From Syntrophus sp. (in: bacteria) (lineage in GTDB: Bacteria; Desulfobacterota; Syntrophorhabdia; Syntrophorhabdales; Syntrophorhabdaceae): a stretch of DNA of 64,000 bases. The position numbers and the translations under genes are program-made. Below, in pieces: positions 2,157 to 55,711 of the stretch (positions are counted from its first letter, which is position 1; every line of letters starts with the position of its first letter). Where the stretch lies: the NCBI GenBank assembly GCA_013824645.1, contig PNOF01000003.1, positions 1-64,000 of the forward strand, read 5' to 3'. The notes under the pieces were generated by a model that saw nothing but the letters and a program-made list of their open reading frames with translations, searched no databases and was not told the origin of the DNA.

Positions 2157-3188
2157 ATGATACCAATCATCATGTTTACAATAAAACCGTCATTGAACAT
2201 CCTTCTGTTTCCAGCCGCCGTATCGGCTGTTGCCATCATTGTCATGTTTGTGCTCAGAGGCGTTGTGTTTACTTTTCTCCATAGATGGGGGCAAAAGTGG
2301 GAAATAAAGATGGATGGCCTCATTGTAAGTTTGCTGAGAGCGCCGTCGATCTATTGGTGCCTTGCCATCGGCCTCTACATCGGCATAGAGCTCTCTGATC
2401 TTCCCAGAAAATACATGTTCTATGTTGATCGGGCAATCTATATCATTCTTATTTTTTCAATAACTCTGGTGCTGGCCAACCTTTCCGTAAAGGTCTTTGA
2501 AAGTTATGTCCAGAAATCGAACATTACCATACCGGCAACAGGGATAGTTTTCGGTGTTTTCAAGGGCATCATCATCATTGCCGGGATGCTCGTTATTTTT
2601 AATGTCCTCGGTATTTCCATAACGCCCCTTATCACAGCCCTTGGTGTCGGAGGTCTTGCTGTTGCCCTTGCGCTGAAGGATACCCTCTCGAACCTCTTTG
2701 CAGGACTCCACATAGTTGCGTCAAAGGAAGTGCGGCCCGGGGATTATATAAAATTTGATTCCGGAGAAGAGGGCACCATAAAGGATATAACCTGGCGTTC
2801 TACAACGGTGATGTCTTCTACGAATAATGCCATCATTATTCCCAACGCAAAGGTTGTGGCTGCCACGATTACAAATTATGACCTCCCTGACCGGGAGGTG
2901 TTTGTTGCTGTGCAGATCAGTGCGGCATACGAGGGCGACCTCGAAAAGATTGAAAAGGTAACGCTTGAGGTTGCGAAAAAAATTATGCATGAAATACCTG
3001 GCGGTGTACCCGGATATGAACCCTCCGTTCGTTTCCATACCTTCGGCGATTTCAGCATACTCTTTTCCGTGGCGCTGAAGGTGAAAGAGTTTGGCGCGCA
3101 GTATCTTGTAAGGCATGAATTTATAAAGGCGCTCCACAGACGATACACGGAAGAGGGGATCACAATCCCTGTTAAAACTGTTGGATAA
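2157..3188 (+). CDS. MscS-family mechanosensitive ion channel
   Basis: This inner-membrane channel would release solutes on hypo-osmotic shock. Four or five hydrophobic helices fill residues 10-160. They are followed by the pore helix GVGGLAVALALKDTLSNLFA and then the beta-domain with a VRPGDYI motif, both diagnostic of MscS. The cytoplasmic region ends near residue 343, similar in size to YbdG/YnaI-type members. A TTG nine bases upstream (2148) is in frame, but neither start has a clear ribosome site; ATG 2157 is chosen. The last eight bases overlap the start of the glycosyltransferase gene, so the two are probably co-translated. Confidence 0.85.
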   Translation: MIPIIMFTIKPSLNILLFPAAVSAVAIIVMFVLRGVVFTFLHRWGQKWEIKMDGLIVSLLRAPSIYWCLAIGLYIGIELSDLPRKYMFYVDRAIYIILIFSITLVLANLSVKVFESYVQKSNITIPATGIVFGVFKGIIIIAGMLVIFNVLGISITPLITALGVGGLAVALALKDTLSNLFAGLHIVASKEVRPGDYIKFDSGEEGTIKDITWRSTTVMSSTNNAIIIPNAKVVAATITNYDLPDREVFVAVQISAAYEGDLEKIEKVTLEVAKKIMHEIPGGVPGYEPSVRFHTFGDFSILFSVALKVKEFGAQYLVRHEFIKALHRRYTEEGITIPVKTVG

Positions 3189-4152
3189 CACCGAAATTCT
3201 CCTTGTCCATTTAGGCGGCCTCGGCGATGTCTGCTTGTCGGAGTCGATTTTTCTCTCTCTTCAAAAACAACTCGGTAATCACGTTGTTGGTCTTGGCAAC
3301 AGGAGGTTTCTTAATCTTTTCAGCGAGTATTTTCTGAGAGTAGAGGGTGTTGAGTCCCGCAAATGGCTCCATCTCTTTTCGGAAAGACTTACCGGGCCAC
3401 AATGGAGGCAGATCGTTTTTATCGGAAAGGACCGGGAAGGGAGGCTTCGCAACCGATGGGAGAAACTCTCTGAAGAAAAGATGGTCTTCATCGATATGTA
3501 TCCGGAAGGTGCTTTTGATGTGACGATCCAGCCTGGGGCTGGACAGGAGGGGGCGACCCACCCTTTGGGAGGACAGACGCGAGCCCCTGAACCGGGAGCA
3601 GTCCGTAGCTCACAAAGTGAGCGAGAGAGGGAGGCTCCGATGGCTTTGCCATTGGAGGGGGCGACGCGAGCCCCTTCGATAGAAGACTACCAGTTAGTCC
3701 AACTGGCTCAATACAGCATTAAACCTGTCAAAAAAGCAATTTCCCTAAAGAAATCGCAGAGGGTTATTCTTTATCCTGAAAAAGGTTTTGAAAAAGAAAA
3801 GTGGAACTATGAGAATTTTATTGCCCTCTCCCTCTCATTAAAGAAAAAAGGTGTCGATGTAATCTTTCTTGAATCTCTCGGTTTGCCTCTCGATGTAGAA
3901 AATAAAGTCTTTTTTGAAGACCTTGGAGAGGTAAGGGCATTTTTCGATGACGGGGGCATTTTCGTGTCCAACGATTCCGGTATGGCGCACCTCGCCGGGG
4001 CATCGGGCCTTTTTACCATTACCATATTCACCGGTTTTGAGCCCGCGATCTGGCACCCGAGAGGACAGTGTGTGACGCTAAAGCAAGGCGAAGACGTGAT
4101 CGAGGTTAATGCCATTAAAAGGAAAATCGTGGAGATTCTTAAAAGCTTATAA
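3181..4152 (+). CDS. Glycosyltransferase family 9 (heptosyltransferase-like) carrying an in-frame repeat insertion
   Basis: The N-terminus (LVHLGGLGDVCLSESIF) and the C-terminal half (VILYPEKGFEKEKWNYENF, then VSNDSGMAHLAGASGLF) match GT-B fold GT9 enzymes that add heptose or related sugars to lipopolysaccharide. The start is TTG, overlapping mscS by eight bases. Residues about 131-165 are encoded by a 105-bp palindromic repeat that also occurs in thpR. It lies in the linker between the two Rossmann domains. About 12 residues before it (EGATHPLGG) look like a partial second copy. The flanking domains are intact, so the enzyme may tolerate the insertion. The sugar specificity is not evident. 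Confidence 0.8.
   Translation: MDNTEILLVHLGGLGDVCLSESIFLSLQKQLGNHVVGLGNRRFLNLFSEYFLRVEGVESRKWLHLFSERLTGPQWRQIVFIGKDREGRLRNRWEKLSEEKMVFIDMYPEGAFDVTIQPGAGQEGATHPLGGQTRAPEPGAVRSSQSEREREAPMALPLEGATRAPSIEDYQLVQLAQYSIKPVKKAISLKKSQRVILYPEKGFEKEKWNYENFIALSLSLKKKGVDVIFLESLGLPLDVENKVFFEDLGEVRAFFDDGGIFVSNDSGMAHLAGASGLFTITIFTGFEPAIWHPRGQCVTLKQGEDVIEVNAIKRKIVEILKSL
3570..3674 (+). repeat. In-frame palindromic coding repeat, copy 1 (in GT9 gene)
   Basis: This 105-bp unit (35 codons, no stop) is nearly identical to 18918-19022. It begins and ends with direct copies of GACGCGAGCCCC. It contains a GCTCAC-AAA-GTGAGC hairpin and a second hairpin CTCCGATGGC-TTT-GCCATTGGAG. Arm bases differ from the thpR copy in a way that keeps a central pair (T-A here, C-G there). 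The encoded peptide starts [10 protein letters not shown] and ends [11 protein letters not shown]. Confidence 0.9.
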
Positions 4153-5585: not shown

Positions 5586-7571
5586 CTATCGTTTTCCGTA
5601 TCTTGAGGGCTGTGCGCTTCTGTGCGCCTGCCGACCTGTAGTTTTGACGGTTTTCTCCTCGAAGGTCTCTTTCACGTTTTCGGCTTCCAGGAATCTACAG
5701 AGTTTGCTTGTCAACCGCTCATTGGCGGTGTTTTTATTATAGAAACTGAGGATAAGCTCCTCCTTTGCCCTTGTGACAGCCACATAGAAGAGTCTTTTTT
5801 CTTCTTCAATATCGCCGCCATCGGCATCGGCAAAAGACCGTCCTGAAGGAAAGACGCCGTCTACGAGGCCGATGAGAAAAACCCTTCCCCACTCGAGCCC
5901 CTTTGATGAATGTACGGTGGAAAGGGTAAGATATTCGAGATCACCATCCTTGCCGTCTTTATCGGGATCGACAGCTACGTCTGCAAGGAAGTCCTTCAAA
6001 GTATCATACCTGCGGGCCATGTGCTCAAGCATGATCAGCTCCTTTGCCCTGGAGGAGTCCTTCTTGTACTTGACCTTCATAATGGGGCCGTAATGGGCCA
6101 AAACAAGCTCCAATTGACCCGCCGGCGCCATGGAGGTGTTGGCTATCGATTGCAGAAGAGTCTTGAGAGACGTGAAGACAGAGGAGAGTTTCTGACCTGT
6201 ACAATAGGGTGTAAAAACCTTATTGATAATGTCGCTCAGATTGTCGTAAGCGACGATAAGATCGAGCAATCTTTCAACAGTTCTGACACCGATGCCGGGA
6301 AGCAATAACAAGACCCGGTGCCATGCCAGCTCATCCGCTGGATTGGCGACAAGCCTCAGATAGGAGACAACGTCACGGACGTGGGCCGTTTCGTAGAATT
6401 TTCGCCCTCCGAAGAGTTTATACCGTATGCCCCGTTTTACCAGCTCCGCCTGGAGAGGCATGGAGGCAAAGGCAGTCCTGAAGAGAACCGCTATCTCTCT
6501 TAAGGTACTGCCTGTAGCACACAAACTCTGGACCTTTTGGGCCACCCACCCGGCTTCCTCATAAACGTCCTCAAAACGGCGCAGTGTCGGTTTCTCGCCT
6601 CTATTGCCCGTTGCTGACACAAGCCGTTTTTCGAACTTCTGTGTCATATTATTGAGAACGGCATTGCCCACATCGAGGATGGACTGGGTGCTCCGATAAT
6701 TCTCCTGGAGCTTGATGACCTTGCAGCCGTCGAATGTGCCGGGGAATTTGAGGATATTGAGGTGGTTAGCGCCCCTGAAACCATAGATGCTCTGGGCATC
6801 GTCACCGACAACCATGATGTTGCCGTTTTTCTTTGCCAGTAGACGGACGATATCTGCCTGGACGCCGTTTGTGTCCTGGAATTCGTCAACCATGATATAT
6901 CTGTATTGTGAAGAGAGCTTCTCCCGTATTTCATTATTCTCAAGAATAATCCTGAGATAGACGAGAAGATCATCGTAGTCAACACAGTTGTTCTTGAGTT
7001 TGTATTTGCCATATTCCTTCTGTACGGTCTTGATCTCGCCAAGCCGGTCTTGGTAGTCTTCATATGTCTTCAGAACCGCATCATCAACATCGAGGCCCTT
7101 GTTGATACAGAGACTGAAAACGTTCTTCAGTTCGTTCTTCTTGGGAAACTCCTTATCCTGGTCGTAGCCCATTTTATTGCAGCAACGCCGAATAGCCTCC
7201 TCGGCGTCGCCTTCGTCGTAAATGGTAAAAGAGCTCGACAGACCTATACCCTTGCAGTAGCGCCTGAGAATTTTACTTGCAAAGGAGTGAAAAGTACCGC
7301 CGTCTATTTTGGAACATCTCGTATCGTTGCGCGAAGCCCGTTCAATCATCTCATGAGCACTTCGACGGGTAAAGGTAAGGAGCAGGACTGATTCGGGACT
7401 GACCTCGTTCTGGACAAGATGGAGAGACCGGTATTCGATGACCCTGGTCTTGCCGCTTCCTGCACCGGCAATAACGAGGACAGGGCCTTCCGTGCTTGTA
7501 ACAGCCTCGTATTGGGAGGCATTAAGCTGTGTCTTGAGGTCCTCGATGATATAATTTCTGCCTTTTGCCAA
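5586..7571 (-). CDS. UvrD/Rep-family superfamily 1 DNA helicase
   Basis: This 661-residue ATP-dependent 3'-5' helicase has the SF1A motifs in order: Walker A GAGSGKT at 36-42, motif II DEFQDTN near 226, VVGDDAQSIYGFRG, QENYRS, TVHSSKGLEW and VAVTRAKEEL near the C-terminus. Such enzymes act in nucleotide-excision and mismatch repair or in restarting forks. The length is close to UvrD/PcrA/Rep (650-750). The start is TTG at 7571, placed by AGGAGG five bases upstream. That ribosome site immediately follows the palindromic repeat array at 7589-7806. Which of UvrD, PcrA or Rep it replaces cannot be decided by eye. Confidence 0.92.
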   Translation of the reverse strand: MAKGRNYIIEDLKTQLNASQYEAVTSTEGPVLVIAGAGSGKTRVIEYRSLHLVQNEVSPESVLLLTFTRRSAHEMIERASRNDTRCSKIDGGTFHSFASKILRRYCKGIGLSSSFTIYDEGDAEEAIRRCCNKMGYDQDKEFPKKNELKNVFSLCINKGLDVDDAVLKTYEDYQDRLGEIKTVQKEYGKYKLKNNCVDYDDLLVYLRIILENNEIREKLSSQYRYIMVDEFQDTNGVQADIVRLLAKKNGNIMVVGDDAQSIYGFRGANHLNILKFPGTFDGCKVIKLQENYRSTQSILDVGNAVLNNMTQKFEKRLVSATGNRGEKPTLRRFEDVYEEAGWVAQKVQSLCATGSTLREIAVLFRTAFASMPLQAELVKRGIRYKLFGGRKFYETAHVRDVVSYLRLVANPADELAWHRVLLLLPGIGVRTVERLLDLIVAYDNLSDIINKVFTPYCTGQKLSSVFTSLKTLLQSIANTSMAPAGQLELVLAHYGPIMKVKYKKDSSRAKELIMLEHMARRYDTLKDFLADVAVDPDKDGKDGDLEYLTLSTVHSSKGLEWGRVFLIGLVDGVFPSGRSFADADGGDIEEEKRLFYVAVTRAKEELILSFYNKNTANERLTSKLCRFLEAENVKETFEEKTVKTTGRQAHRSAQPSRYGKR

Positions 7572-7588
7572 AAATTCCTCCTATTGCC

Positions 7589-7806
7589 GGGGCTCACGTC
7601 GCCCCCTCCAATGGCAAAAGCCATCGGAGCCACCCCCCTCTCGCTCAAGAATGAGCTAAAGGGTTTCGTCTCAATTGCCGGGGCTTGCGTCGCCCCCTCC
7701 ACCGGCAAAGCCGGCGGAGCCACCCTCTCTGCTCGCAGAAGCTCGCTATACTCTCCCGTGAGCTGCTTCTATGCTGCCTTCTTTCCGGGCTCACGCCAGC
7801 CCTCCC
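7589..7806 (-). repeat. Tandem palindromic repeat array upstream of the helicase (two diverged copies plus fragments)
   Basis: Read on the minus strand, this region holds two units related to the in-frame repeats at 3570 and 18918. Unit b is about 7589-7679 and unit a about 7680-7806. Each contains the CTCC..GGC-TTT-GCC..GGAG hairpin followed by GGGGGCGACG(C/T)(A/G)AGCCCC. Unit b has a shorter GCTCA-TTCT-TGAGC hairpin; unit a has lost symmetry there. The arms covary between copies (CCGGC/GCCGG versus ATGGC/GCCAT). The array fills the space between the 170-residue ORF and the helicase ribosome site. The remainder to 7910 holds short hairpins (for example AAGGG-TTTTG-CCCTT) but no gene. Confidence 0.8.
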
Positions 7807-7910
7807 TTGTTCGTGAACTCGTTAAGGGTTTTGCCCTTCGCAGAGGCTTTGTTTTTTCGTCCCTCGTCCCTCGGTTTTTAGCGAAAGCAAGCGCGTCCTT
7901 GAAGGACCGG

Positions 7911-8423
7911 TTATCTGGCCGCAAGAAGCAGCGTACGGAGTATGGTGGAAACAGTTTCCTTGTGGTCCGCCATAATAGCTTTTATTTGTTTCTCCTTATC
8001 GGTGATAATACTGCCCATTGTGCTGCCGTTCGTATCAAGCATACAACAGAGAAGTCTGGGGGTATGGAGCCGTAGGAGACCTTCGATGTGACGGTAGAAA
8101 CGTTGGGCACCATCATTGGAAACCAGAAGCAACCGCGAAACCCGGTCGCCACCCGGAAGACCCTTACCTTTTCGAAGGTGGTCAATCCCCTTTTTATCAC
8201 TTTCCAGCTTATCCGAGATTGCCTCTAATCCACACCGGATGCTGCCATTCAGGTTGGCTTTCTGGAGCGCCTTTTTCAGGGGATCACTCATGGTGATCAT
8301 TGGTATGGAAAGATCGCTGCCGGGCCAGAGTTGGACGGAACGGGCAGCCAGGACCAGACGAATAGCACCGCCTTCGCCGTCAGCCTCTAACGCTCTGGGC
8401 AGTTTTATACCTGAAATATCCAT
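7911..8423 (-). CDS. Unknown 170-residue protein
   Basis: I do not recognise this family. The protein has no signal peptide or membrane span. It has a basic middle (HLRKGKGLPGGDRVSRLLLVSNDG), a Leu/Cys-rich stretch (LRLHTPRLLCCMLDTNG) and a C-terminal amphipathic helix rich in Lys, Ile and Leu. It lies 29 bp downstream of the MaoC gene on the same strand and upstream of the helicase, so co-transcription is likely. The ribosome site (GGAG, 14 bases before the ATG) is weak. Codon use resembles its neighbours and no ORF of similar length lies opposite, so I take it as real. Confidence 0.55.
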   Translation of the reverse strand: MDISGIKLPRALEADGEGGAIRLVLAARSVQLWPGSDLSIPMITMSDPLKKALQKANLNGSIRCGLEAISDKLESDKKGIDHLRKGKGLPGGDRVSRLLLVSNDGAQRFYRHIEGLLRLHTPRLLCCMLDTNGSTMGSIITDKEKQIKAIMADHKETVSTILRTLLLAAR

Positions 8424-18068: not shown

Positions 18069-18544
18069 CGCCGGAAGAAAAGATAGGCGCCATTTTACAG
18101 AGTAAGTCGCTGACCATGGGGTTTGCGGAGTCGTGCACCGGGGGACTTTTAGCGAGCAGAATTACCGATATCCCCGGGTCTTCCCGATATTTCATGGCCG
18201 GGCTTGTTACCTATGGCAATGGGGCAAAAACGAAGTTTCTTTCCGTACCAGAAGAGATAATTGTGAAAAACGGCGCTGTAAGCGCCATTGTGGCAGAGCT
18301 TATGGCAAAGGGGGTACGAGACGGGGCAGGAGTTGATATCGGTCTTTCCATAACAGGCATTGCGGGACCGACTGGAGGAAGTCCTGAGAAACCTGTCGGC
18401 ACTGTCTTTATGGGCCTTGTGACACAAGAGGGAGTTTGGGTGGAAAGGTTTTTATTTACCGGTGACAGACATGAAATACGCCGGCAGGCAACGGAGGCAG
18501 CCCTCAGAATACTCCTTAATTACCTTGAGGAGAGGTTTTCATGA
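18065..18544 (+). CDS. CinA C-terminal-type nicotinamide-nucleotide amidohydrolase
   Basis: This 159-residue protein is the stand-alone amidohydrolase module of CinA (PncC), which deamidates NMN in pyridine-nucleotide salvage. Typical motifs are GFAESCTGGLLASRITDIPG, VTYGNGAKTKFL and SITGIAGPTGGSPEKPVGTV, covering the active site. The N-terminal MoeA-like domain of full CinA is absent. It overlaps pgpA and thpR by four bases at each end. The order cinA-thpR-recA is frequent in bacteria, which supports the calls. Confidence 0.92.
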   Translation: MTPEEKIGAILQSKSLTMGFAESCTGGLLASRITDIPGSSRYFMAGLVTYGNGAKTKFLSVPEEIIVKNGAVSAIVAELMAKGVRDGAGVDIGLSITGIAGPTGGSPEKPVGTVFMGLVTQEGVWVERFLFTGDRHEIRRQATEAALRILLNYLEERFS

Positions 18545-19239
18545 GAGCTTTCCTGGCCCTTGAAATCCCTCACGACACTAAAGAATATCTATCAGTTGTT
18601 TCGAAGAGAATGTCGCAATTGGTGCCCGGAGTGAAATGGGTAAAGGGTGAAGGGCTGCATGTGACGCTCAAGTTCTTTGGTGAAATTGATGATGCCATGG
18701 TGCAGGAGATAGCATTCGCCATGACAGGCATTGGCGGACAACACAAGGCTGCCATGGTGCAGTTAAAGGAAATCAGCGCTTTTCCTGACTTGAGGCGGGC
18801 CAGAGTCATCATCGTCACATTCCAGGAAGGGGTTGACAACGTACGAGCGATATTTCATGATATAGAAAGCCGTCTCGCTGTCCCGGAAATCCATGACAGT
18901 GAGACCCTATCTACGATAGGACAGACGCGAGCCCCTGAACCGGGCGCAACCCTTAGCTCACAAAGTGAGCGAGAGGGGGAGGCTCCAACGGCTTTGCCGC
19001 TGGAGGGGGCGACGCGAGCCCCAGAAAAAGCGCGAGCCCCAGAAAAGTCAGAGCGATTTACCCCTCATATCACTCTTGGCAGGGCTAAGGGAGCGGTCCC
19101 GTTATTGAAAAGGGACATAATACCACTTGAGAAAAAGAGATTTGTTATAGATACTATTGTTTTGTACCAGAGTACATTAACAAAAGCAGGAGCCATCTAT
19201 GCTCCTCTGAAGGAAATAAAACTTGAAAGGAATTTTTGA
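18541..19239 (+). CDS. thpR: ThpR, RNA 2',3'-cyclic phosphodiesterase (2H family) carrying an in-frame repeat insertion
   Basis: The two catalytic HxT motifs of the 2H phosphoesterases are H40-V-T42 and H176-I-T178 ([14 protein letters not shown]). The protein is 232 residues, about 50 longer than usual for ThpR. The excess maps to residues 127-161, the same 35-residue peptide found in the GT9 protein, followed by a short duplication ([10 protein letters not shown]). The insertion lies just before the second HxT motif, in what should be a loop. The gene is in frame and sits between cinA and recA with four- and one-base overlaps, so it is expressed rather than an obvious pseudogene. Confidence 0.9.
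18918..19022 (+). repeat. In-frame palindromic coding repeat, copy 2 (in thpR)
   Basis: This 105-bp unit is nearly identical to 3570-3674, in the same reading frame and with the same terminal direct repeats GACGCGAGCCCC. The hairpins are GCTCAC-AAA-GTGAGC and CTCCAACGGC-TTT-GCCGCTGGAG. Immediately downstream, the tail GCGAGCCCCAGAAAA is duplicated in tandem (19014-19046), adding six residues. Confidence 0.9.
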
Positions 19240-55162: not shown

Positions 55163-55711
55163 ATGAAAAAAGTTTTGATGATCGCATTGGCAATTCTTAT
55201 CAGCGTCGCATTCGTGACAACCGTATTCGCACAGGATAAGAAAGCAGAGAAAGCAGCAGCAGAGAAAGCAGCAAAACCCGCAGCAGAGAAAGCAGCAGGA
55301 CCCGCAGCAGAGAAAGCAGCAGGACCCGCAGCAGAGAAAGCAGCAAAACCAGCAGCAGAGAAAGCAGCCGCAAAAGCAAAAACACCGGCCTTTAAGGGCG
55401 AATTCGTCAGCGCAGACGCAGCAGCAAAGACAATCGTCGCGAAAAACGACAAAGGCGACATGACTTTTGACGTCCAGGGCATTAAGAAACTGGCAGAATT
55501 CAAAGCCGGCGACAAGATAGTCGTTGTCTATAAGGAAAAAGATGGCAAGAACGTAGCAAAATCAGTAAAGGCAGTAAAGGCAGCCAAGGTAAAGAAAGCA
55601 GAGAAAGCAGCAGCAGAGAAAGCAGCAGGACCAGCCGCAGAAAAAGCAGCAGGACCAGCCGCAGAAAAAGCAGCAGGACCAGCCGCAGAAAAAGCAGCAC
55701 CGAAGAAGTAA
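55163..55711 (+). CDS. Exported Ala/Lys-rich repeat protein under sigma-54 control
   Basis: The 182-residue protein has a signal peptide (residues 1-23, ending VFA) and two blocks of an eight-residue repeat of the AAEKAAGP or AAEKAAKP type (about 27-73 and 145-180). They flank a central domain at about 75-135 (FKGEFVSADAAAKTIVAKN, FKAGDKIVVVYKEKDGK), which resembles a small beta-barrel. AAAGGAG lies nine bases from ATG 55163; an upstream ATG at 55124 in frame is ignored. The repeats are tandem 24-bp DNA copies. No family or role is recognised. Confidence 0.75.
   Translation: MKKVLMIALAILISVAFVTTVFAQDKKAEKAAAEKAAKPAAEKAAGPAAEKAAGPAAEKAAKPAAEKAAAKAKTPAFKGEFVSADAAAKTIVAKNDKGDMTFDVQGIKKLAEFKAGDKIVVVYKEKDGKNVAKSVKAVKAAKVKKAEKAAAEKAAGPAAEKAAGPAAEKAAGPAAEKAAPKK

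Follow-up and report, generated by a model that had tools for sequence, protein, structure and literature searches.

Tandem hairpin units in front of a UvrD-type helicase gene are probably copies of a dispersed, REP-like repeat

What are the structured repeat units that directly precede a UvrD-type helicase gene, and do they serve that gene or belong to a family that is spread over the genome? We address this question in the window, that is, the whole stretch of 64,000 nucleotides that was analysed, in the remainder of its genome and in related genomes. The helicase gene (5586..7571, minus strand, 661 aa, TTG start at 7571) has a paralogue of ~40% identity elsewhere in the own genome (C2), and the units occupy the minus-strand gap that separates the helicase start from an ORF whose end is at 7911. 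The two head-to-tail units that an earlier note placed here are real: their cores, 7589-7661 and 7680-7751 (minus strand), are matched by one covariance-model hit each, they also appear as two 36-nt direct repeats of 89% identity at a spacing of 91, and they end at the AGGAGG of the helicase. The extent given in that note was nevertheless too short, since it left out a degenerate third unit at 7787-7828 and a 5' extension reaching to ~7880.

Unit 2, which is proximal to the helicase (7581..7661, minus strand; covariance-model match 7589-7661, tail read from the sequence), consists of hairpin 1 (hp1, GCTCA..TGAGC), hairpin 2 (hp2, GGCTCCGATGGC-TTTT-GCCATTGGAG), hairpin 3 (hp3, GGGGCGACGTGAGCCCC) and the tail GGCAATAG, and its predicted fold has an energy of -46.1 kcal/mol (z -4.1). 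The tail covers 7588-7581 and overlaps the Shine-Dalgarno AGGAGG (7577..7582, minus strand) by two bases, such that the first AG of the latter is the end of the former. Unit 1 (7672..7751, minus strand), delimited by a covariance-model match (L196 3592-3663) and by the sequence, has the hp1 variant AGCGAGCTTCTGCGAGCAGAG, hp2 GGCTCCGCCGGC-TTT-GCCGGTGGAG, hp3 with GACGCAAGCCCC and the tail GGCAATTG. The third unit (CCCTTAACGAGTTCACGAACAAGGGAGGGCTGGCGTGAGCCC, 7787..7828, minus strand), recognised from the sequence and from a partial repeat (D3), has no hp2, and the 5' extension (GAGGGACGAGGGACGAAAAAACAAAGCC..., 7829..7880, minus strand), found by comparing oriented copies, is common to several other copies in the own genome.

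Two genes of the window carry in-frame copies, which together with the two array units make up the four copies that the earlier note compared. In a GT9-type glycosyltransferase gene (3181-4152), the insert 3546..3680 (plus strand) consists of a partial unit with a widened hp3 followed by a full unit (core 3603-3674); its peptide is specific to the insert, relatives either lack it or have unrelated residues in its place, and the same-genus genome G020 has ~41 fewer residues at this site. In a ThpR-like gene (18541-19239), the insert 18910..19030 (plus strand) contains a full unit with core 18951-19022; the ThpR of relatives matches at residues 1 to ~113 and in most cases resumes at ~170, with residues ~114-169 unmatched and the insert missing. 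As the earlier note claimed, the units are not random repeats: GGGGCGACG occurs four times in the window against 0.30 times in shuffles, and the own genome has ~49-52 copies (49 by BLAST with one unit, 52 by covariance model). Elsewhere in the window, at 55239-55368 and 55593-55699, there are two 12/24-nt tandem arrays (AGAAAGCAGCAG) that are probably Lys/Ala-rich coding repeats.

In our judgement the array units are probably copies of a dispersed, non-coding, non-autonomous mobile REP-like repeat of ~80 nt, here called E, whose sense strand reads [T/G/C]AG-hp1-(GAGAGGGGN)-hp2 (GGCTCC...GGAG)-hp3 (GGGGCGACGYGAGCCCC)-NNNAATAG. A promoter reading of its TATAAT-like tail (GGTAATAG in the own genome) was rejected, as there is no -35 in register. 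The covariance model finds 0-86 copies across 40 genomes (the own genome and relatives), patchily even within single genera (51, 86 and 1 copies in one; 24, 68 and 0 in another). Other genomes, from several phyla, contain an exact 21-nt core in at least 112 stretches, the MAG labels among the matches listed being Nitrospirae, Syntrophobacterales, Syntrophorhabdus, other Deltaproteobacteria, Bdellovibrionales and one Acidobacteria; the identity of this core across phyla is imposed by the exact-match pattern, and the covariance-model matches allow variation. We infer that E spreads by copying. About six positions are common to the own genome and G020, which indicates that copies also persist by descent, with changing stems. 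A search for carriage of E by phages or plasmids gave no match, nor did the curated covariance models of Rfam, by which a riboswitch or leader family would be recognised. Two observations concern individual members of the data set: L105 39-392 (a Syntrophorhabdus MAG) has four 93-nt tandem units with the hp1 region partly replaced by a CCGGGTACCC hairpin, and the matches G000:C43:17136-17279 and G030:C58:17136-17279 have identical coordinates and near-equal scores, possibly one contig binned into both MAGs.

E is dispersed, high-copy, palindromic and mainly extragenic and has compensatory stem changes, and in these respects is a REP in the broad sense. GTAG and CGTC REPs are palindromic and numerous, their stems covary and contain G.U pairs, and they lie chiefly between genes, with some in frame inside genes such as uvrD (Di Nocera et al. 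2013, PMC3733652); they are patchy across phyla, and the CGTC type has no known transposase (PMC3733652). E resembles them in copy number, in covariation with G.U pairs, in its mostly intergenic and partly in-frame location and in its patchiness. However, it has three hairpins in ~80 nt (20-40 in REPs), its copies are arranged head to tail rather than head to head, and they lie mostly in sense, often beside downstream starts and in a subset with long target duplications. Over 90% of GTAG REPs have a terminal GTAG and their RAYT gene is flanked by the repeat, whereas the sequence 5' of hp1 in E is mostly TTAG, also GTAG or CAG, and E lies within ~1.5 kb of only one of the 32 Y1_Tnp loci examined (L178). 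CGTC REPs have a CGTC tag and an 8-9 bp stem with AT pairs first and second; antisense E has CGTCGCCCCCTCC and its stem starts with G/C. Like Rickettsia palindromic elements (RPE; PMC3733652), E inserts in frame in protein genes with the reading frame kept, but its sequence is distinct and its copies are mostly intergenic and head-to-tail. MITEs such as RUP, NEMIS and ERIC are short, non-autonomous, transcribed, folding and next to genes (PMC3733652), and E is likewise short, non-autonomous, folding and gene-adjacent; in place of terminal inverted repeats of 15-30 bp and short target-site duplications of set length, it has ends (AG-hp1 and hp3-AATAG) that are not mutual inverted repeats and, where present, duplications of 18-121 nt. 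E is not mentioned in the REP literature that we searched, and RepRanger covers only three Nitrospirota species.

The earlier note read the differences between hp2 stems as base-pair-preserving, correctly (GCC/GGT against GAT/ATT, that is, C-G for T-A and C-G for A-T), and saw in them selection or copying of a folded structure. The genome-wide covariation check bears this out, because the stem changes of hp2 are compensated: in the genome-wide alignment there are 37 double-changed hp2 cells compared to 13.6 after shuffling, and pairing holds in 96% of all cells compared to 42-66% for slid partners. In hp2, 94% of cells are paired and four pairs are changed on both sides; hp3 is nearly invariant in the same alignment. 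The first pair of hp2 is G.U in 34 cases and A.C in none (shuffled 42.7 and 8.7), and the 117 distinct stems have many G.U pairs and few A.C. This tolerance of G.U but hardly of A.C indicates that the sense strand is the one that folds, as RNA or as single-stranded DNA. Whole hp2 stems are sometimes exchanged between copies (L268, L157, L107); because of this, and because the copies compared are paralogous, covariation alone cannot separate selection from copying, and some of the hp2 covariation may reflect copying instead of point changes. Under the mechanism proposed below hp2 would be kept as a structure, and the invariant hp3 and tail are probably a recognised end. Consistent pairing of hp1 was rejected, as the GCGAG..CGAGC class cannot pair like the GCTCG..CGAGC class and a hairpin forms in one class only.

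Between codirectional genes E is in sense 116 times and in antisense 26 times (90:18 in the first set and 26:8 in five further genomes), and inside ORFs 35 times and 6 times (30:5 and 5:1), where the reading frame also selects; all these counts rest on a home-made coding-potential gene caller. In the first set the bias exceeds only modestly the 0.75 that could arise from genes on the leading strand (p 0.026). Many copies abut the start of the downstream gene, and known REPs lie near the 3' ends of upstream ORFs at varying distances from downstream ORFs (PMC3733652). The interval between a tetratricopeptide-type and a gcvH-like gene is occupied by E in two related MAGs, but in opposite orientation (L052 5888 and L108 6821).

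Part of the copies have a footprint of insertion. The upstream flank is repeated within 15 nt after hp3 in 25 of 255 copies (~10%; 17/198 and 8/57 by set), compared to 4 of 1033 control windows (odds ratio 28, p 1e-14). To be counted, a duplication had to be at least 20 nt long in the first set and in the controls, or at least 18 nt long in the second set; the lengths run from 18 to 121 nt, and the copies that bear a duplication are in sense to the upstream gene by 21:2. About 90% of copies have no flank duplication, which counts against insertion as read here; they may be older or have arrived by a different route. In some cases the duplication continues into a second E and is a tandem rather than a target duplication, and other duplications fit the order upstream-A-B-E-A-downstream. 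At L127, for example, the right side carries a complete tRNA-like gene and the left side a 29-nt piece of that gene; at L359 the copy on the right completes an inverted repeat together with native DNA, and short shared sequence is seen at both junctions. The end of an AMP-ligase gene is duplicated in all three E-bearing genomes (G000, G020, G034) and single in each of the 25 readable genomes that lack E, where a terminator-like hairpin usually comes next; at the occupied ends (own C37, G020 C176, G034 C80) the duplications start at different bases, and the site is either a hot spot or an old insertion with homogenised repeats. The same criterion applied to the 5' junction gives 20 of 201 copies, but this count also takes in tandem arrays and E itself and is therefore not a clean test; the difference between the two junctions is thus drawn from individual cases. 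The duplicated gene ends at L080 and L121 (rplL-like and mraZ-like) differ almost solely at synonymous sites, a pattern not predicted by simple target duplication; it is as though the two ends had diverged as coding sequence before they came together.

We propose that the 3' end of a new copy (AATAG) would be joined directly to target DNA and that the 5' junction would be looser and could carry extra sequence, whereby a host segment of 18-121 nt, in many cases the end of the upstream gene, would be duplicated. As for what moves E, our tentative first choice is that the host replication machinery switches strands at the hairpins, and an unrecognised enzyme acting in trans is possible but less likely; these two seem the most likely routes, the remainder falling to a RAYT in trans or to RNA. 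The preference follows from the observation that E has no strict need of a resident Y1/RAYT-type transposase or of an RVT_1 reverse transcriptase, though incompleteness of MAGs and later loss leave a possible part for both. A Y1 (RAYT/IS200-type) transposase that mobilises a REP/REPIN-like E in trans through its single-stranded hairpins is in line with the folding of one strand, with the GTAG before hp1 in some copies, with the Y1_Tnp genes of all 19 E-bearing genomes tested (many of them ORFs of 210-345 aa) and with a weak correlation between their number and that of E (rho 0.40, p 0.011). We consider it unlikely all the same, given the poor conservation of GTAG, the near lack of E beside Y1 loci noted above, and the lack of any Y1_Tnp match in G023 (67 copies, 99% complete) and G044 (59 copies, 97% complete). 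Long variable target duplications are, to our knowledge, not expected of the Y1 family, which also counts against it. These very duplications, the near-fixed 3' junction with its looser 5' side, the G.U-tolerant folding of the sense strand and the sense orientation, duplication-bearing copies included, would suit a SINE-like process in which target-primed or similar reverse transcription turns a sense transcript back into DNA. This is very improbable, however, as the two richest genomes listed as 100% complete, G036 with 68 copies and G038 with 86, have no RVT_1 gene, and no protein family recurs beside E in the neighbourhoods checked for a mobiliser. There is a slim chance that E is a bacterial counterpart of SINEs served by an undescribed enzyme, its moving form being the folded sense strand, inserted at gene ends parallel to transcription, with the 3' end fixed, the 5' end looser and the target duplication long and variable.

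Tandem arrays with a repeated 5' flank (C8, L076, L105, L128, L265, L268) and the stability of the hairpins could also be explained by pure hairpin-stalled replication slippage, with local tandem duplication of flank and E and no true transposition. This is unlikely in view of the non-tandem cases with native DNA after the second flank copy (L127, L359, L351, L378, L384, own C37), the in-frame insertions with unoccupied homologues and the occupation of unrelated loci in different genomes. The remaining alternative extends what the earlier note proposed for the helicase, namely that E is a cis-regulatory leader RNA under selection, for which the maintained structure, the several copies 5-30 nt upstream of start codons of codirectional genes and the positions common to the own genome and G020 can be cited. 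We regard it as highly unlikely: the genes that carry E differ between genomes, the stems differ even where positions are shared, and the leaders of six helicase orthologues (73-80% identity) have no E. A role in expressing the helicase is unsupported because these six leaders are empty, four of them in genomes with 51-86 copies of E; another leader is common to most of the orthologues. Several orthologue leaders (L197-L201) have a promoter-like motif similar to CTGGACAAAGACC...TACTTTAATATC ~60 nt before the helicase start, which is missing before the helicase of the window. A conserved set of target genes for E was likewise rejected, different genes being occupied in different genomes. Taking E as a dispersed mobile repeat, the units in the helicase leader would be an untranslated insertion array that left the Shine-Dalgarno site intact, and any effect on helicase expression would, judging from the sequences, be incidental to this lineage.

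The finding is a caution that hairpins in a leader need not mean gene-specific control, as E precedes dozens of unrelated genes and is missing from orthologues. The wider question behind E is how REP-like repeats spread without a dedicated transposase, and the footprints, the orientation, the unoccupied sites and the hosts with and without candidate enzymes make this question testable.
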